Shown piece by piece: positions 31,145-54,857 of a stretch of DNA of 64,000 nucleotides. The notes beneath the pieces were generated by a model. The model saw only the letters and a list, made by a program, of their open reading frames with translations. It made no database searches and was not told where the DNA came from. Position 1 is the stretch's first letter. Each line of letters begins with the position of its first letter. The position numbers were made by a program, and so were the translations under genes. The stretch comes from Luteolibacter luteus (GTDB lineage: Bacteria; Verrucomicrobiota; Verrucomicrobiia; Verrucomicrobiales; Akkermansiaceae), in assembly GCF_012913485.1 (NCBI RefSeq), contig NZ_CP051774.1, positions 1,798,001 to 1,862,000 on the forward strand, read 5' to 3'.

Positions 31145-32542
31145 ATGCCATGGAGCATCACCCTTGCCGGAAAGACGCATCAATTCGCGGATCTCCGCAC
31201 CCTCATGGCAAAGGCCACCCCTCTCCGTTCCGGTGATGTCCTCGCAGGCCTTGCCGCCGGATCCTCCGAAGAACGCGTCGCCGCCCAATACCTCTTGGCC
31301 GAGCTCCCCCTCTCCCACTTCCTTGAAAATCTTCTCATTCCTTACGAAGCCGACGAAGTCACCCGCCTGATCACGGACCGCCACGATGCCGCCGCCTTCG
31401 AGCCGGTCGCCCATCTCAGCGTCGGCCAATTCCGCGACTGGCTCCTTGCCTACGAAACCGACGCCGCCGCGCTCACCGCCCTCGCTCCGGGACTCACTCC
31501 GGAAATGGTCGCCGCCGTGAGCAAGATCATGGCGAACCAGGACCTCATCCTCGTCGCGTCGAAATGCGAGGTCGTCACCCGCTTCCGGAACACCATCGGC
31601 CTACCCGGCCGTCTCTCGGTCCGCCTCCAACCCAATCACCCCACCGATGACCTCCGCGGCATCGCGGCCTCCATGCTCGATGGCCTCCTGCTCGGCTGCG
31701 GCGATGCCGTGATCGGCATCAATCCCGCCACCGATCAGGTATCCACCACCTGCTCGCTCCTGCACCTCATGGACGAGCTGATCACCCGCTACGAGATCCC
31801 CACGCAGTCCTGCGTGCTCGCCCACGTCACCACCCAGATCCACGCGATCGAGGAAGGAGCACCCGTCGACCTTGTCTTCCAATCGGTCGCCGGATCTCAA
31901 GCGGCAAACAAAAGCTTCGGCATTGACCTCGCCCTCCTTCGCGAAGCCCGAGAGGCCGCGCTCTCCCTGAGGCGCGGCACGCTCGGCAGCAACGTGATGT
32001 ATTTCGAAACCGGTCAAGGCAGCGCACTTTCTGCCGGTGCCCATCACGGCATCGATCAACAGACCATGGAAGCCCGCTCCTACGCCGTCGCGCGCGAGTT
32101 CAGCCCTCTGCTCGTGAATACCGTCGTCGGCTTCATCGGCCCCGAGTATCTCTACGATGGCAAGCAGATCACTCGTGCCGGACTCGAGGACCATTTTTGT
32201 GGAAAGCTGTTAGGCCTCCCGATGGGCTGCGATGTCTGCTACACGAACCATGCGGAAGCAGATCAGGATGACATGGACAACCTGCTCACGCTCCTCGGCG
32301 TCGCCGGTTGCAACTACATCATGGGCGTTCCTGGCGCGGATGACATCATGCTCGGCTATCAGTCGACCTCCTTTCACGACGCTCACTACCTGCGCCAGGT
32401 CTTGAAGAAGCGTCCCGCCCCGGAGTTCGAGGCATGGCTCGCGAAAACCGGCATCGTCAATGGTCGCGGCCAGCTCGTCGAAAATGCCCGCGCCCTCGCG
32501 GACGCACCCCGCTTGTTGAAACTCGAATCCACCGGCTCATGA
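31145..32542 (+). CDS. eutB: Ethanolamine ammonia-lyase large subunit
   Basis: 465 residues from the ATG at 31145. EutB uses adenosylcobalamin to turn ethanolamine into acetaldehyde and ammonia. Typical segments: PVAHLSVGQFRDWLLAYETD, LVASKCEVVTRFRNTIGLPG, GDAVIGINPATDQVST, YFETGQGSALSAGAHHG and CDVCYTNHAEADQDDMDNLL. Full length. Its stop overlaps the eutC start (ATGA), so the subunits are coupled. No reactivase EutA, permease or microcompartment shell genes are in the window, so a minimal, cytosolic use of ethanolamine is likely. Confidence 0.95.
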   Translation: MPWSITLAGKTHQFADLRTLMAKATPLRSGDVLAGLAAGSSEERVAAQYLLAELPLSHFLENLLIPYEADEVTRLITDRHDAAAFEPVAHLSVGQFRDWLLAYETDAAALTALAPGLTPEMVAAVSKIMANQDLILVASKCEVVTRFRNTIGLPGRLSVRLQPNHPTDDLRGIAASMLDGLLLGCGDAVIGINPATDQVSTTCSLLHLMDELITRYEIPTQSCVLAHVTTQIHAIEEGAPVDLVFQSVAGSQAANKSFGIDLALLREAREAALSLRRGTLGSNVMYFETGQGSALSAGAHHGIDQQTMEARSYAVAREFSPLLVNTVVGFIGPEYLYDGKQITRAGLEDHFCGKLLGLPMGCDVCYTNHAEADQDDMDNLLTLLGVAGCNYIMGVPGADDIMLGYQSTSFHDAHYLRQVLKKRPAPEFEAWLAKTGIVNGRGQLVENARALADAPRLLKLESTGS

Positions 32543-33288
32543 GCGAGGATATCCGCCCATCCCTGCAGCGGTGGACCAGCGCCCGCGTCGTCCTTGGCCG
32601 GACCGGTGGCTCCGTCCCTCATGGGGCTCTGCTCGATTTCCGCCTCTCCCACGCCCGCGCTCGCGATGCCGTCCATCAGGACTTCCACCCGGAGGTATTG
32701 GCTGCCGAACTGGAGCCACTGGGCCTCCCTATCCTCCTCACGCAGTCGCAAGCGCACGACCGCGCCACCTACCTCCAGCGCCCCGATCTTGGTCGCCGCC
32801 TCGATCCCTCATCCCAATCCCTGCTGGAAGGTGCGCGGACGCCCGAGGGCTTCGACCTTGTCATCATCGTGGCCGATGGCCTCTCCGCCACCGCCGCCCA
32901 CCTTAATGGTGCTCCTTTGCTCCAAGCGCTAATCCCTCTGTTAGATTCGTTCCGCTTGGCTCCTCTCGTCATCGCGCCCTTCGCCCGGGTCGCCCTTCAG
33001 GATGAAATCGGCCACGCCATCGCCGCTCGTGCCGCCCTGATCGTCTTGGGCGAGCGTCCCGGACTCGGCTCGCCCGATAGCTTGGGAGCTTACCTCGTCC
33101 ACAGCCCTCAGCCGGGCAATACCGACGCCCTGCGGAATTGCGTTTCGAACATCCGCTCCGCGGGACTTCCCCCGCAAACGGCCGCCCGACGCATCGCATG
33201 GCTCCTCAATGAGTCACGTCGGCTCGGCTTCAGCGGCGTCGATCTGAAGGATCGCAGTGCCGCCGTTTTACCGCGCCCCTCCCCTTGA
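32539..33288 (+). CDS. eutC: Ethanolamine ammonia-lyase small subunit
   Basis: 249 residues from the ATG at 32539, which overlaps the eutB stop by 4 bases. EutC signatures: TSARVVLGRTGGSVP, LDFRLSHARARDAVH, RPDLGRRLD, VIIVADGLSATAA and VLGERPGLGSPDSLGAYL. It forms the cobalamin-binding complex with EutB. The N-terminal leader is shorter than in enterobacteria, where it targets the enzyme to microcompartments; this agrees with the absence of shell genes. Confidence 0.94.
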   Translation: MSEDIRPSLQRWTSARVVLGRTGGSVPHGALLDFRLSHARARDAVHQDFHPEVLAAELEPLGLPILLTQSQAHDRATYLQRPDLGRRLDPSSQSLLEGARTPEGFDLVIIVADGLSATAAHLNGAPLLQALIPLLDSFRLAPLVIAPFARVALQDEIGHAIAARAALIVLGERPGLGSPDSLGAYLVHSPQPGNTDALRNCVSNIRSAGLPPQTAARRIAWLLNESRRLGFSGVDLKDRSAAVLPRPSP

Positions 33289-33331: not shown

Positions 33332-33347
33332 TTCACTTATTCTTCAC
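33332..33347 (+). promoter_or_regulatory. cre-tag-like CreB operator upstream of creB
   Basis: TTCAC (33332-33336), 6 bases, TTCAC (33343-33347): an exact match to TTCACnnnnnnTTCAC, the direct repeat bound by E. coli CreB. It lies 46 bases before the creB start codon in a 104-base intergenic gap, a position that suits autoregulation. Confidence 0.6.
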
Positions 33348-33392: not shown

Positions 33393-34097
33393 ATGAACGT
33401 CCTGCTCGTCGAAGACGAACCCGCGATTGCCGATACCCTCGTTTACGCCCTGAAGACCGAGTGTTTCGAAGTGAAGCACGCGCTCACCGGGCAAGAGGCG
33501 CTCGATGCATTCTCGGAGAAGCCTTTCGAATTCGTCATCCTCGATATCGGCCTGCCGGACATGACGGGCTTGGACGTCTGCAAGAAGCTCCGCGAGGAAT
33601 CCACCGTGCCGGTCCTTTTCCTCACTGCACGGGATGGCGAAGTGGACCGCATCCTCGGCCTTGAATTGGGAGGGGATGACTACGTGACGAAGCCTTTCAG
33701 CCCGCGTGAGATCGTCGCCCGCATCCGGGCCATTCTCCGCCGCTCGGGAGCCCCCTCGGCCACCGCGAACGCTGCGCACGCCGCCCAGCAACCTCAAGCG
33801 GCTCCCGCCGGCCCGCTCTACCATGATGCTTCGGCCATGCGGATTCACTGCCACGGCACGGAGCTCGATCTCACGGCACACGAGTACAAGCTGCTGCTCG
33901 TCTTCATCAAGAATCCGCGCCGCGTGCTCACCCGTGACCAACTCCTCGATCACGCATGGGCGGATCCCGGCGCCGTTACCGACCGAACCATCGATGCCCA
34001 CATCAAGTCGATCCGTGCGAAACTGAGGATCGCGAAGCCGGGTGCGGAGGATTTCATCCAGACCCGTCGCGGACTCGGGTACCTCTTCGTTCCCTGA
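33393..34097 (+). CDS. creB: Response regulator, OmpR family, CreB-like
   Basis: 234 residues. The receiver domain has acidic pair E7/D8, phospho-acceptor D51 in LDIGLPDMTG, LTARDGEVDR and K100 in TKPFSPRE. The winged-helix output domain shows ELDLTAHEYKLLL, NPRRVLTRDQLLDHAW and RTIDAHIKSIRAKL. It is closest by eye to E. coli CreB: shared IADTLVY, PDMTG/PDISG, EVDRILGLE and KPFSPREI. The partner kinase follows 107 bases later, and the cre-tag-like repeat upstream supports the CreB identity. Confidence 0.88.
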   Translation: MNVLLVEDEPAIADTLVYALKTECFEVKHALTGQEALDAFSEKPFEFVILDIGLPDMTGLDVCKKLREESTVPVLFLTARDGEVDRILGLELGGDDYVTKPFSPREIVARIRAILRRSGAPSATANAAHAAQQPQAAPAGPLYHDASAMRIHCHGTELDLTAHEYKLLLVFIKNPRRVLTRDQLLDHAWADPGAVTDRTIDAHIKSIRAKLRIAKPGAEDFIQTRRGLGYLFVP

Positions 34098-34204: not shown

Positions 34205-35650
34205 ATGCGCCTCACCCGCGTCACGCTGCTCGTCATCGCACTGATCATCGGCGCAGGCCTGTATCTGCTGCTCCGCCAGCAGCTTTCGGTGGTCGAGCCC
34301 CAGACCTATCAGGCGACGGAAGAATCGATGGTCGATGCCGCCCAGTTGCTCGCTTCGATGGTGGCCGCGGATTTCAAGAGCGGCTCCTTTGACAAGCAGC
34401 GCTTCCAGACCGCCTTCGAAGGGGTCTCGCGAAAGCGCTTCAAGGCCGTCATCCACGGCCATATCAAGTCCCATGTGGGCCTCGGCGCTTATCTCACCGA
34501 CGCCAAGGGCATCGTCATTTTCGACTCCGCAGGAAAGCTGGAGGGTACCGACCTCTCGAAATCCCGCGATGTCTTCCTGACCCTGCAAGGAAAGTACGGC
34601 GCCCGTAGCAGCCGCGTGGATGAAAAGAATCCCCAGTCCTCCGTGCTCCACGTCGGCGCGTTGGTCGGTCCGCTTCAAGCTCCCATCGGCGTGCTCACCG
34701 TCTACAAGCCTCAGGCGGACGTGCTTCCGATTGTCGACGCCCGCCGCCGCGGCATCTATTGGGGCACCGGCCTGATCGGTGCGGGCATTCTCTTCCTCGT
34801 GACCGCCGTCTTCATCTGGCAATACCTGCCGGTTGGCCGCCTCACCGAGTACGCCCGCGACATCGAGTCCGGCAAACGCCCGCCCCTGCCGAAGCTCGGT
34901 GCCGGCAAGGAAGTGAACACCTTGGCCCGCGCCCTCGAATCCATGAGGGAAGCCCTCGAAGGCCGTCGCTACGCGGAGCGCTATGTCCAGACGCTCACTC
35001 ACGAGATGAAGAGCCCCCTGGCCGCGATCCGCGGGGCGGCGGAGCTCCTTGATGAGGACATGCCGGAGGCCGATCGCCGTCGCTTCCTCGGAAACATCCG
35101 CGCCGAGTCCGGCCGGGCCGACCGCCTGCTCAATCGCCTGCTCGAGCTCTCCGCCCTGGAAGGCCGCAGCAGCCTGGACGTCGCGGAAAACGTGGACCTC
35201 GAGTTGATTCTCACTCGTGCTGTCGATCAAGGCCGCCCGCCTGCCGATCTCGCCGGCGTGGGTCTCGCCGTCACCCTGCCGCCTGCCATGCTGCTGGTCC
35301 GGGGGGATGCCTTCATCATCCGGGCCGCCATCACCAACCTGCTTGAAAACGCCATCGATTTCTCGCCCGTGGGATCTACGATTGATATCGTACTTTGGGG
35401 CAAGGACGGGAAAGCCATGATCGAGATCTGCGACCGCGGCCCCGGCGTCCCGGAGTATGCCACGGACAAGGTCTTCGAGCGCTTCTACTCCCTGCGCCAC
35501 CACTCATCCGGTCGGAAGGGCACCGGTCTTGGCCTGACATTGGTGAAGGAAGCTGCCGAACTTCACGGCGGGTCCGTGGCCTTGGAGCCTCGCGAGGGTG
35601 GCGGAACCGTGGCCCGCTTGGTCTTCCCGGTCATCTCCTCGCTTCGCTGA
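34205..35650 (+). CDS. creC: Sensor histidine kinase, CreC-like
   Basis: 481 residues from the ATG at 34205. Two membrane helices (about 5-23 and 186-206) flank a periplasmic sensor domain with LGAYLTDAKGIVIFDSAGK and DVFLTLQGKYGARSSR; the latter is nearly identical to the E. coli CreC segment (WLTLRGQYGARS). HAMP-like linker PVGRLTEYARDIESG precedes the kinase, with phospho-acceptor His266 in TLTHEMKSPLAAIRGAAELL and the ATP-lid GTGLGLTLVKEAAELHGG. Predicted to phosphorylate the CreB-like regulator. The input signal is unknown. Confidence 0.88.
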   Translation: MRLTRVTLLVIALIIGAGLYLLLRQQLSVVEPQTYQATEESMVDAAQLLASMVAADFKSGSFDKQRFQTAFEGVSRKRFKAVIHGHIKSHVGLGAYLTDAKGIVIFDSAGKLEGTDLSKSRDVFLTLQGKYGARSSRVDEKNPQSSVLHVGALVGPLQAPIGVLTVYKPQADVLPIVDARRRGIYWGTGLIGAGILFLVTAVFIWQYLPVGRLTEYARDIESGKRPPLPKLGAGKEVNTLARALESMREALEGRRYAERYVQTLTHEMKSPLAAIRGAAELLDEDMPEADRRRFLGNIRAESGRADRLLNRLLELSALEGRSSLDVAENVDLELILTRAVDQGRPPADLAGVGLAVTLPPAMLLVRGDAFIIRAAITNLLENAIDFSPVGSTIDIVLWGKDGKAMIEICDRGPGVPEYATDKVFERFYSLRHHSSGRKGTGLGLTLVKEAAELHGGSVALEPREGGGTVARLVFPVISSLR

Positions 35651-35670
35651 TCCGGCGGCTGCACGTGACC

Positions 35671-35719
35671 TTCACGAAAGCGGAATCACCTTTTCACCGC
35701 ACGTTCAGCACGGTTTCAC
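35671..35719 (+). promoter_or_regulatory. Multi-copy cre-tag-like array upstream of membrane-protein genes
   Basis: TTCAC (35693-35697), 6 bases, TTCAG (35704-35708), 6 bases, TTCAC (35715-35719), each 11 bases apart; a further TTCAC begins at 35671, exactly 22 bases before the first. This is an extended form of the TTCAC-N6-TTCAC repeat found before creB. It occupies the 93-base gap after creC and ends 25 bases before the next start codon, so it could be a CreB-controlled promoter for the following genes. Confidence 0.55.
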
Positions 35720-35743
35720 CATCGGTGGTTTTGATGCGGCCAA

Positions 35744-36508
35744 GTGATCCGTCACCTGCTGCAACCAAGCTCCGAGCTGCTCGATGACCCCTCGCCGGGG
35801 CGAATCGCCAAGATCGCCACACTGACCGCGCTCTGCCTGGCGGCCTATGGTTTCACCACCGGCTTCTGGCGTTCGCCCCTGCTCGGCGTCTACGTCTCGA
35901 TCAAGATGCCGCTGCTCGTGGCCTTCACCCTGGGCTGCAATGGGCTCCTCAATGGCCTGCTCGGGATCCTCCTCGGAGGGCTTGGCTTCCGGGAGTCCTT
36001 GCTGGCCCTTCTCAGTGCCTTCGCCTCCGTCGCCCTGATCCTCGCATCATTGGCACCCGTGACCTTCATGCTCGCGCTCAATGCGCCGCCGCCGGAATCC
36101 GGATACGCTACCTCGGCTCATGCCGCTTACCTTCTCTCGCATGTGTTCCTGATCGCCATCGCGGGCATCGCGGGAACCCTCTCGCTCTTCCGCATCCTCA
36201 AGCAGCGCTGTAGCGATCCCCGGATCGCCGCAATCACCATGCTTGCCTGGCTCGCGGGCAATGGGTTCCTCGGAGCGCAATTCTCCTGGATCCTCCGTCC
36301 CTTCTTCGGCTCGCCCTCCATCGAGGTGGCCTTCCTCCGTAAACAACCTTGGAAGGGCAGCTTCTATGAAGCCGTCTGGCGATCCCTCGATCGCATCACC
36401 GATGGCAATGCCTTCCTCGCCGTTCTCCTCCTGATCTGCGGCGCCGCCCTGCTCGCTCTCCAGATCTTCCGCTCGCTCTCATTCCGACCTGTATCCACAA
36501 CGACATGA
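35744..36508 (+). CDS. Multi-spanning membrane protein in creD position
   Basis: 254 residues, GTG start. About six hydrophobic segments alternate with short loops (first near residues 25-42; last near 230-246). No recognised domain. In enterobacteria CreBC is followed by creD, a membrane protein of about 450 residues; this protein is shorter and shows no evident similarity, yet it sits in the same place behind an apparent CreB operator. It overlaps the next gene by ATGA (4 bases). It could be a functional substitute for CreD or a separate output. Confidence 0.75.
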   Translation: MIRHLLQPSSELLDDPSPGRIAKIATLTALCLAAYGFTTGFWRSPLLGVYVSIKMPLLVAFTLGCNGLLNGLLGILLGGLGFRESLLALLSAFASVALILASLAPVTFMLALNAPPPESGYATSAHAAYLLSHVFLIAIAGIAGTLSLFRILKQRCSDPRIAAITMLAWLAGNGFLGAQFSWILRPFFGSPSIEVAFLRKQPWKGSFYEAVWRSLDRITDGNAFLAVLLLICGAALLALQIFRSLSFRPVSTTT

Positions 36509-37257
36509 ATACCGACATCCCGCAACCACCCCCATACTACAGCCCGCAGCCGCATGCGGAACCACCGCTGCCTGACAAGCTGGGCATGCGCTCGCTCTTC
36601 GAAGCGCTGCTCAGAAGCCCGAAGGCCCTTATCCAACGCCTCGCCAGTCCCGGACATGGCGCACTCCTTCCCTTCCTCCTGCTGGCGATTGTCTCCATGA
36701 TCATCTTCGGGCTCGTGCTTGGCACCTTCGCCATGCACGAGCAAATCTGGGCCGCCCCGCTCAAAATCACCGCAGGCCTCTTGATCTCGGGGCTCATCTG
36801 CTTCCCCAGCCTCTACATCTTCTCCTGCCTCGCCGGATCGCGCGCCGGTGCCTCGCAACTCGCCGCCACCTTGGCCGGCATGCTCGCCCTCTCGGGCCTG
36901 CTGCTCTTGGGCTTTGCCCCGGCCGTGTGGATCTTCACCCAGGCCACCGATGGCTATGGCTTCATGGGTTTCATCGCCCTCGCCACCTGGTTCATCGCCG
37001 TCGCCTTCGGCTTCCGCTTCCTCGGCAGCGCGATCGCTTCAACCGGTGCCAACAGCAAGATACCTCTCGTCGTCTGGAGCTGCATCTTCCTCGTGGTCAC
37101 CTTGCAGATGACCACCTCGCTGCGCCCCATCATCGGTCGCTCGAATCGCTTTCTGACAAATGAGAAACTCTTCTTCGTCCAACACTGGATCACCTCGTCA
37201 AGCGAATCGCTACCCGCGCCCACCGCCTCCGAAACCTCCAGCCAGCCAGGAGAATGA
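36505..37257 (+). CDS. Multi-spanning membrane protein, Yip1-like, coupled to preceding gene
   Basis: 250 residues. A proline-rich cytoplasmic N-terminus (PQPPPYYSPQPHAEPPLP) is followed by about five membrane helices, the first starting near residue 50. The layout resembles bacterial Yip1-domain proteins, but no conserved motif confirms this. Translation is probably coupled to the preceding gene (4-base ATGA overlap) and its stop overlaps the ATG of a 45-residue frame in the same manner. Confidence 0.72.
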   Translation: MNTDIPQPPPYYSPQPHAEPPLPDKLGMRSLFEALLRSPKALIQRLASPGHGALLPFLLLAIVSMIIFGLVLGTFAMHEQIWAAPLKITAGLLISGLICFPSLYIFSCLAGSRAGASQLAATLAGMLALSGLLLLGFAPAVWIFTQATDGYGFMGFIALATWFIAVAFGFRFLGSAIASTGANSKIPLVVWSCIFLVVTLQMTTSLRPIIGRSNRFLTNEKLFFVQHWITSSSESLPAPTASETSSQPGE

Positions 37258-37391
37258 AAGCTCCCCGCCCGAAGCCCGTCCGGGTGACAAAACCGGCACG
37301 TTCCTCCATCAAGCCCCGGAAACGAAAGCCCACCATCCCCGCACCCCGCGACGAACTCTTCGAATCCATGCGCGGCGAACTCGGCCTCTAG
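37254..37391 (+). CDS. Small basic reading frame coupled to creBC-linked genes
   Basis: A 45-residue frame, MKAPRPKPVRVTKPARSSIK at the start and ELFESMRGELGL at the end; ATG overlaps the upstream stop (ATGA). The first 30 residues are rich in Lys/Arg/Pro. No family recognised. The overlap is the best argument for translation; composition alone is weak. Confidence 0.4.
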   Translation: MKAPRPKPVRVTKPARSSIKPRKRKPTIPAPRDELFESMRGELGL

Positions 37392-53022: not shown

Positions 53023-53568
53023 TTACCGCCGTTCGCCCTTGGGATCGGGATCTCCCCTTTGCGGAACGGAGGGCAATCCGGAAGCGGCATCCTTGAGCCT
53101 CCGGATGGAGTTCCGCTCGATGGTCACGTTCATCTCCCGGCCTCGCAGCGGATGAATCGAGCGGAGATAATTGAGATCGCTCACATCCAGCTCCTGCCAG
53201 CGGTAGCGGAACAAATTCAGGTGTCCTTCCGAAACGATCACCTTCTGCTCCGACCCGCCCGAGCGCAATGTCACCTCAAAGTCCGGCGGCAAGCGGCCGA
53301 GATCATCGACAAAGTTCACTTCCGTCCTCAGAGGGCCGCCATAAAGGAGGACCAGGGCCAGCAGAAGGAACAACCAGATCGAGCGGGCCGGTCCGCGCTT
53401 GCGACCGGGCACCGGGGGAGGCAACGGCTGCCGTTGTTGCGGCAGAGGCGGCGGTTCAATGAAGGGCGGCTCGGGATTCACTCGCACCAAGGGTAATGGG
53501 TCTAGCGGCGGGCTCTCTCGGAACAATGACGGCTTTTGTCTCCTGAATCCCGCCGTGCTTCCACCCAT
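53023..53568 (-). CDS. Proline-rich single-pass membrane protein, unknown
   Basis: 181 residues. A proline-rich N-terminus (PEPPFIEPPPLPQQRQPLPP) lies in the cytoplasm, one membrane helix at about 65-79 (SIWLFLLLALVLLYG), and a roughly 100-residue outside domain. No family recognised. It lies 2 bases after the stop of the next upstream gene on this strand, so it is part of a three-gene set (55458 to 53023). Confidence 0.65.
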   Translation of the reverse strand: MGGSTAGFRRQKPSLFRESPPLDPLPLVRVNPEPPFIEPPPLPQQRQPLPPPVPGRKRGPARSIWLFLLLALVLLYGGPLRTEVNFVDDLGRLPPDFEVTLRSGGSEQKVIVSEGHLNLFRYRWQELDVSDLNYLRSIHPLRGREMNVTIERNSIRRLKDAASGLPSVPQRGDPDPKGERR

Positions 53569-53570
53569 GG

Positions 53571-54857
53571 CTACTTCGTTAAAAGTGTCGCGTGATCCCT
53601 TGATGAAGCATTGATGAATCGTACCACATCCGGCGCGACTTTCACGACTCCCACGAAGCGGTTCTCCGGCGTAGCCACGATCTCACCTGGCGCAGGATCC
53701 TTCTCGCTGCCAGCCAAGGCCGAGGTCATGGAGCAGGCTGCCTTGATGAACTCATCCGCACCCGCCTCGGACTCGAAGCGGATATCCCAAAGCAAATGGA
53801 CATCTGCATCGCTAGTGGCGTGGAGACGGTAGCGGTCACCCACCCAGTTTCCTGCCAGCTTCGGGAACTCCTCCCCCAGCGGTTCCATCCAGAGACTCAG
53901 GCCGAGCATGCCGGCGGATTCTTCCAAGAGTACATTGCCGGGGGTCGCGGGAGGCTCCGGCGCCTTGGCAACCATACCCTCGTGCTCCGGAAAGAGATCG
54001 GCGCTGATCGTCGGAGGCTTGTGGAGGAAGGACAGGAGCTCCTCCTGATCCATCAGTCGCTCCGCCCGGGGCAGGCCGAGCACGGCGGGAAAGGTCGCGA
54101 TCCCCCGTACATAAGCAGGCAGGTTCGCCATCAATTCGCGGGCGTCGGCATTCTCCTGCGCCCCGGTGAAGCCGTTGGCCAAGGCCTGGCGGGCAAGAAA
54201 GCGATTCTCGACCGCCATCGCGGCACCATGGTTCAGAGCTTCCCGCGCGATCGCAGCCTCATCTCCCGGCCATCCGGGCGGCGGCGGATTGTTCTGATGA
54301 ATCAGGATGCGGCCCAAGGCGCGGATCAGGGCTGCTTGATCGGGCACCGACTTCTCATCGAAGCGATCCGTTACCCAGCCCTCTCCGGTCAGTTCATCGA
54401 ACCAGGAGCGAGCACCGACCGACTTCGTGGCAGCGAGCTGCGCGGCGAAACGGTCGTCGGAATTCAGCAATCCCATCATCACCCAAGCTTGCTGCCGGGA
54501 ATCAAGGCCGTGAGGCCCATATCGCGCCTCAATCGAGGCGATGATCCGGTCGCGAAGCTCTTCACCCGCGATCTTATGGACCTTCGGGTTGCTCTGGAAA
54601 TTCATCTGGAGCGCTTCCTCAACAAAGCTGATCGTCGCCGGGTCCACGTGAAGTTCTCCGCCGCCTTGAGCGAGCGAGCGGAGGCTCTCGTTTTCCCGGC
54701 GCAGCATCTCGATCTCGTTTTCGAGAGCAACGATCTTGCCTTCGGCATCCTCGCCACCTGCCCGGGGAGCCGACGCGCGCCAATGCATGCCTTGGATCAA
54801 GCCGGCTGCGCCAATGGCACCACCGAGCAGCCAAGGGAGAACCTTCTCCGGACGCAT
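53571..54857 (-). CDS. Membrane-anchored helical protein, unknown
   Basis: 428 residues from the ATG at 54857. An N-terminal anchor (VLPWLLGGAIGAAGLIQGMHW) is followed by a coiled coil (EGKIVALENEIEMLRRENES) and a mostly helical domain of about 340 residues. No family recognised. It follows the upstream gene by 4 bases. Confidence 0.7.
   Translation of the reverse strand: MRPEKVLPWLLGGAIGAAGLIQGMHWRASAPRAGGEDAEGKIVALENEIEMLRRENESLRSLAQGGGELHVDPATISFVEEALQMNFQSNPKVHKIAGEELRDRIIASIEARYGPHGLDSRQQAWVMMGLLNSDDRFAAQLAATKSVGARSWFDELTGEGWVTDRFDEKSVPDQAALIRALGRILIHQNNPPPPGWPGDEAAIAREALNHGAAMAVENRFLARQALANGFTGAQENADARELMANLPAYVRGIATFPAVLGLPRAERLMDQEELLSFLHKPPTISADLFPEHEGMVAKAPEPPATPGNVLLEESAGMLGLSLWMEPLGEEFPKLAGNWVGDRYRLHATSDADVHLLWDIRFESEAGADEFIKAACSMTSALAGSEKDPAPGEIVATPENRFVGVVKVAPDVVRFINASSRDHATLLTK

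Follow-up and report, generated by a model that had tools for sequence, protein, structure and literature searches.

The closest described relatives of the locus presented here are the CreBC (BlrAB) systems of E. coli, Aeromonas and Pseudomonas. Two reports (PMC4689548, PMC3660660) place a CreB/BlrA site, TTCACN6TTCAC, upstream of creD and describe it as critical for binding; the tag string TTCACnnnnnnTTCAC appears in PMC3660660. For S. maltophilia, PMC4689548 and PMC5402928 describe CreD as maintaining the envelope and CreBC as controlling creD negatively. Proteobacteria are already known to have CreBC, its tag and a CreBC-controlled membrane gene beside creC. When an 8.5-kb stretch of E. coli K-12 was searched on both strands, the sole TTCAY-N6-TTCAY was TTCACCGTCACTTCAC, which lies ahead of creD, within the 3' end of creC.

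PhoB provides a further point of comparison. Many regulators of the OmpR/PhoB fold bind repeats spaced 11 bp apart. At PhoB class II promoters, direct repeats of this period (the pho box, with units of the TGTCA type) replace the -35 element and stand about 10 bp from the -10.

CreB, CreC and the layout of the locus

The window (the whole stretch of DNA that was analysed, 64 kb of the Luteolibacter luteus genome) holds creB and then creC, followed by an array of short repeats and a run of overlapping genes:

33332..33347, plus strand: TTCAC-N6-TTCAC upstream of creB, a putative autoregulatory site
33393..34097, plus strand: creB, OmpR/PhoB-type response regulator (NF008296, 287.9 bits, cut-off 273)
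34205..35650, plus strand: creC, sensor histidine kinase (NF008312, 500.3 bits, cut-off 356)
35660..35675, plus strand: further in-phase units read from the sequence, TGCAC at 35660-35664 (one mismatch) and TTCAC at 35671-35675
35693..35719, plus strand: core array TTCAC-N6-TTCAG-N6-TTCAC, three 11-bp-phased units, a candidate CreB site
35730..35735, plus strand: putative -10 hexamer TTTGAT, 10 bp after the array, placed by an aligned T position
35744..36508, plus strand: m1, 254-aa multi-helix membrane protein with a GTG start, no Pfam or NCBIfam family
36505..37257, plus strand: m2, multi-helix membrane protein of 250 aa, 4-nt overlap with m1, without a match in Pfam or NCBIfam
37254..37391, plus strand: 45-aa basic protein overlapping m2, with a C-terminal motif in common with relatives

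Both regulatory proteins pass curated equivalog cut-offs in a profile search. CreB is 46% and CreC 38% identical to the E. coli K-12 protein, and gene order, phospho-acceptor region, DNA-binding helix and histidine box all agree with those of K-12, the motifs LDxGLPD, DRTxDxHIKxxRAKLR and LTHExKSPLAAIRGAAE being common to both.

That the same unit and spacing recur at creB, as the initial annotation proposed, is borne out by an exact TTCAC-N6-TTCAC that ends 45 nt from the creB ATG. Among 12 creB upstream regions of the window's genus, the exact pair is found in four (this genome, L067, L070 and L074), and TTCAT variants are found in others; in genus g3, creB is preceded by a strict TTCAC triple scoring at least 13 in 9/16 loci.

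Upstream of creB, eutB-eutC (ethanolamine ammonia-lyase, 31145-33288) directly precede the gene; in L067 and L075 the DNA in front of creB looks, by eye, like the end of eutC, and this neighborhood may be conserved. One database record, CAMCYK010000001.1 (L112), is titled Akkermansia muciniphila and holds a creC 80% identical to the window's creC; the title looks wrong.

A phased array behind creC

On re-reading of the sequence, the three core units proved to be exactly where they had been reported (TTCAC 35693-35697, TTCAG 35704-35708 and TTCAC 35715-35719), with a further TTCAC at 35671; distances from the latter onward are 22, 11 and 11 bases. The in-phase slot at 35682 reads GGAAT and is no unit, and five of six 11-bp slots fit. 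The TTCACN6TTCAC tag, exact at creB, is present at m1 with one mismatch per pair.

The likeness to the proteobacterial systems extends over the half-site, the 11-bp period, a membrane protein gene as output, CreB and CreC recognized by curated cut-offs, and a site at the end of creC: the K-12 tag lies within the creC 3' end, close to the corresponding place here, just behind the creC stop codon. There are differences too. The known tag has two units, whereas three or more are present here; the known output is creD, whereas here m1, m2 and the 45-residue protein follow; neither CreD nor the secreted-protein partner described below was found in this genome; and the array lies 24 nt before the start codon.

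Sites of this kind are more frequent than expected by chance. Allowing at most one mismatch, the window has 11 copies of TTCAC-N6-TTCAC, whereas 100 shuffles averaged 2.61 and never exceeded 7; triples scoring at least 14/15 number two, with none for the reversed control. Over the whole 6.41-Mb genome, 72 triples have at most two mismatches, compared with 18 for the reversed pattern; 11 of these have a single mismatch and none is perfect. Nor does this genome hold an exact TTCAY triple, the middle unit of the m1 array being TTCAG.

The bare pair is a poorer guide. The initial annotation looked to a genome search for further TTCAC-N6-TTCAC to define the regulon; exact pairs in this genome do exceed the reversed control (27 vs 5). 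Of 26 non-creB sites viewed in context, 8 lie inside a predicted gene, and the neighbors of the remaining sites have, by eye, no common theme, so that no regulon was built on pairs. In a scan of N3 to N9 spacings (180 matches in all), 13 with N6 were counted by hand among the matches listed, where codon-phase spacings look commoner than N6. Because the bare pair is found in 287/288 genomes of the order, it is weak evidence; the argument rests on the triple in phase and on its conservation.

Triples follow creC across the order

The sample comprised 288 genomes of the order, 143 with creC over the cut-off (lowest score 425 bits) and 145 without; the best matches below were two fragments of 315 and 193 bits, and genomes with creC fragments below the cut-off (G014, G101) were counted as lacking creC. 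Exact TTCAY-N6-TTCAY-N6-TTCAY was counted together with its reversed pattern. The creC-bearing genomes contain 464 such triples (reversed control 4), and those lacking creC contain 62 (reversed control 24); at least one is present in 128/143 of the former vs 32/145 of the latter. The same association appears within each of the three mixed genera tested: 25/25 vs 5/23 in g21 (p 4.6e-9), 15/16 vs 3/11 in g3 (p 0.0006) and 15/17 vs 6/16 in g15 (p 0.004). The matches listed for genomes without creC include a site that is conserved in genus g2 and a tandem repeat. In the 18 genomes of the window's own genus there are 41 exact triples and none for the reversed control. The extended array noted at m1 is real, but it is no peculiarity of this locus, arrays of at least three units being common in the order.

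Conservation in front of m1 homologues was examined at 115 loci (96/114 family genomes with a match, and 19 picked from 56 matches in other families). A triple of at least 13/15 precedes m1 in 35/56 genomes with creC and in 0/13 without (best score 12; Fisher p 2.4e-5), as well as in 28/46 genomes whose creC status was not scored; reversed sequence gave 0/115. Shuffling yielded p <= 0.01 at 34 loci with creC, 30 of unscored status and none without. Among the 21/56 creC-bearing genomes that fall under 13, 8 score 12 and 13 score 8-10, which amounts to no array. The usual form in the window's genus is TTCAY-N6-TTCAT-N6-TTCAY.

Where m1 stands within 400 bp downstream of creC (13 relatives with the same gene order), the array is largely conserved, as the initial annotation would have it: 8/13 reach 13/15, 2/13 score 12, and 3/13 (G106, G274 and G275, scoring 8-10) have no array. 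It also stays with m1 far from creC, as exact triples in G064, G114, G143, G265 and G123. Homology searches between triple-site neighborhoods returned chiefly the m1 group; choosing the longest frame downstream of each exact triple proved noisy and was left unused. One genome, G325 (L277), has an exact triple near creC and no m1 match; its output genes may have been lost, or the assembly may lack them.

The m1-m2 operon and its distribution

Both membrane proteins are modeled confidently by AlphaFold2 (mean pLDDT 90.4 for m1 and 87.4 for m2), and neither model matches a PDB entry at E <= 0.001. Neither sequence matches a Pfam family at E <= 0.1, and hence neither matches CreD (PF06123). Relatives of m1 and m2 likewise gave no family apart from Yip1 (PF04893), with weak matches to 4/60 m2 relatives at E <= 1 (best E 0.0023), all short of the gathering score, and none to the window's m2; m1 had no match in plasmid records. 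The two had been taken for unrelated proteins, a description that profile comparison speaks against: hhalign aligned 175 columns with LRPxxG in both (probability 69.6, E 4.2e-5), which makes a distant relationship between m1 and m2 probable. The 45-residue protein is conserved: its C-terminal motif, [LV]FxxxRxELGL, recurs in 10 further genomes of the window's genus (G325, G106, G064, G114, G120, G143, G327, G314, G322 and G123); a match in G183 appears to belong to another protein, and the motif was not seen at the loci of other genomes.

In the window's family (f1), m1 is present in 51/62 genomes with creC vs 4/67 without, a contrast on which one large genus lacking both weighs. Other families of the order have m1 independently of creC (25/81 vs 27/78), and genus g21 has the inverse relation (2/25 vs 9/23); weak m1 matches in G192, G237, G019, G101, G130 and G149 were left out of these counts. 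A strict partnership of m1 with CreBC was rejected on account of this independence and inversion. Since m1 goes with creC in f1 but not in other families, we read it as an older family that came under the control of CreB in the window's family.

CreD, a CreD-like operon and other candidate targets

A search of this genome for CreD (PF06123) returned nothing at E <= 0.001. Many genomes of families f2 and f4 have, just upstream of creB-creC, a CreD-like protein corresponding to the C-terminal third of PF06123. The possibility of an array immediately before the CreD-like gene itself was considered and rejected, as 0/20 loci reach 13/15; the operon is headed by a gene for a secreted protein, and the array lies further up, before that head gene. 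In G100, of the window's family, an array precedes a homologue of the secreted-protein gene (L322), from which an array was expected at the heads of CreD-like operons elsewhere. Of 20 chosen loci in all, a full triple was found in 19/19 creC-bearing genomes of families f2, f4 and f6, often with four units and sometimes five; full-length CreD in G027, which lacks creC, has no array. Within the window's genus the secreted-protein gene occurs in 5/18 genomes, this one not among them, and in 5/5 it follows an array of 13-15/15 that ends 22-23 nt before the ATG. Three of the secreted proteins were compared with Pfam and matched no family above the cut-off.

CreD and m1 resemble each other in being membrane proteins behind arrays of like kind; they differ in that m1 and m2 have no PF06123 match and in that the CreD-like operon is headed by a secreted-protein gene. 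Although m1-m2 does occupy the creD position here, as first suggested, it is often elsewhere in relatives. A CreD match (E <= 0.001) coexists with m1 in 12/51 family genomes that have both creC and m1, and m1 also occurs in genomes without creC. CreD matches are commoner in creC-bearing family genomes without m1 (7/11 vs 12/51, p 0.026), a hint of exchangeable outputs.

A second candidate target is present in the window, its array ending 23 nt before the ATG of the gene behind it:

53592..53618, minus strand: second array TTCAT-N6-TTCAT-N6-ATCAC, 14/15
53023..53568, minus strand: protein of 181 aa that follows the second array and has a single apparent membrane segment

Some exact triples elsewhere invite attention in their own right. 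Those at L272, L280, L288 and L291 lie in matching neighborhoods of G114, G143, G265 and G064, four genomes of the window's genus, in an apparent gap between convergent genes, and may mark a small gene or RNA. Those at L274 (G120) and L275 (G183) stand 22-25 nt before the start codons of two proteins, related (49%) and roughly 330 aa long, that seem to be anchored in the membrane at their N-terminus. A filter on start distance served for side observations of this kind alone.

Spacing and a putative promoter

Geometry was compared at 21 m1 and 11 creB loci, chosen among those with arrays or near-arrays, and at the 19 operon heads. From array end to start codon, operon heads have 22-23 nt in 17/19, the others having 25 and 35 (the latter shrinks to 24 when the array is read in the next, weaker register); creB has 22 nt in 10/11 and 21 in 1/11; and m1 has 22-24 nt in 11/21, with the other 10 ranging from 15 to 38, a spread that comes partly from uncertain starts. 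The m1 array of this genome ends 24 nt before the start codon. A T stands at +16 after the array in 19/21 m1 and 11/11 creB loci. At operon heads it is found at +15 in 13/19, one base earlier, and the assignment of the -10 is therefore uncertain.

With a -10 at +11 to +16, transcription would begin at the start codon, here at about 35742-35744, at or just before the GTG at 35744. That the array mostly sits 22-24 nt before the start on three unrelated targets suggests PhoB-like class II activation and a near-leaderless mRNA, which is the least certain step of the proposal. Likeness to the pho-box promoters lies in 11-bp direct repeats that would replace the -35 about 10 bp before the -10; the unit (TTCAY), the regulator (CreB) and the putative near-leaderless start are different.

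Alternative readings

Coincidence is extremely improbable as an account of the array. Single pairs occur in nearly every genome of the order, as they might if TTCAC were common at codon boundaries, and yet shuffles, reversed controls, conservation upstream of m1 and the unbroken series of operon heads all contradict it. PhoB or another OmpR/PhoB-type protein might be the one that reads the array, given that 11-bp-spaced repeats are bound by many members of the fold and that the window's CreB itself matches PhoB models, below their cut-offs. We consider this quite improbable, as within single genera the presence of triples goes with that of creC, creB and the CreD-like operon both have arrays, and the unit matches the published CreB site.

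A shade less probable again is that m1 and m2 are read through from the creBC transcript and that the array is a functionless remnant of a creD promoter. The position does match the creC-creD junction of E. coli, and in three relatives (G106, G274 and G275) m1 follows creC without an array; against this, the array moves with m1, as the exact triples at m1 genes distant from creC attest.

A proposed Cre output

We think it very likely, from the sequence comparisons above, that the array is a tandem site for phosphorylated CreB that switches the operon of m1, m2 and the 45-residue protein, a new membrane output. We infer CreB binding, activation, the transcription start, the signal and m1-m2 function, and the following steps are proposed in that sense. 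CreC would sense an envelope or metabolic signal. Phosphorylated CreB would bind 35693-35719 and the weaker phased units upstream, with a CreB DNA-binding domain for each TTCAY unit, at 11-bp intervals along the same face of the helix. Standing in place of a -35 and ending 10 bp before the weak -10 TTTGAT, the array would let bound CreB recruit RNA polymerase, as PhoB does, and a near-leaderless mRNA would carry m1, m2 and the 45-residue protein. CreB would drive its own gene via 33332-33347. In this genome, where CreD was not found, the m1-m2 pair would then act as membrane effector of the response. The sign of control could be repression, since CreBC acts negatively on S. maltophilia creD.

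With no CreD found in this genome, the earlier suggestion that the Cre regulon has been rewired to a novel membrane output fits. A further possibility, against which we lean slightly, is that m1-m2 represents a new paired membrane family that was captured by CreB in the window's family and took over the envelope role that belongs to CreD elsewhere.

What appears to be new is the extended arrays, the near-fixed start distance and the candidate Cre targets in Verrucomicrobia, namely the secreted-protein/CreD-like and m1-m2-45aa operons. A literature search, with subscription journals mostly outside its coverage, returned no such Cre arrays in Verrucomicrobia, and the accessible CreBC literature that mentions Verrucomicrobia contained nothing on sites.

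The tandem CreB site proposed here would place a Cre regulon that uses the same half-site outside Proteobacteria; this regulon can be followed through more than 100 genomes, and conservation names its core members: creBC, the CreD-like operon and the m1-m2 operon. It would supply a computable signature of targets in the order (a run of at least three TTCAY units in phase, some 22-24 nt ahead of a start codon) and link a widespread membrane family, one that corresponds to no annotated family, to a regulator that can be put to the test. Were the capture of m1-m2 by CreB also true, the Cre switch and its timing would be conserved and the effector exchangeable.
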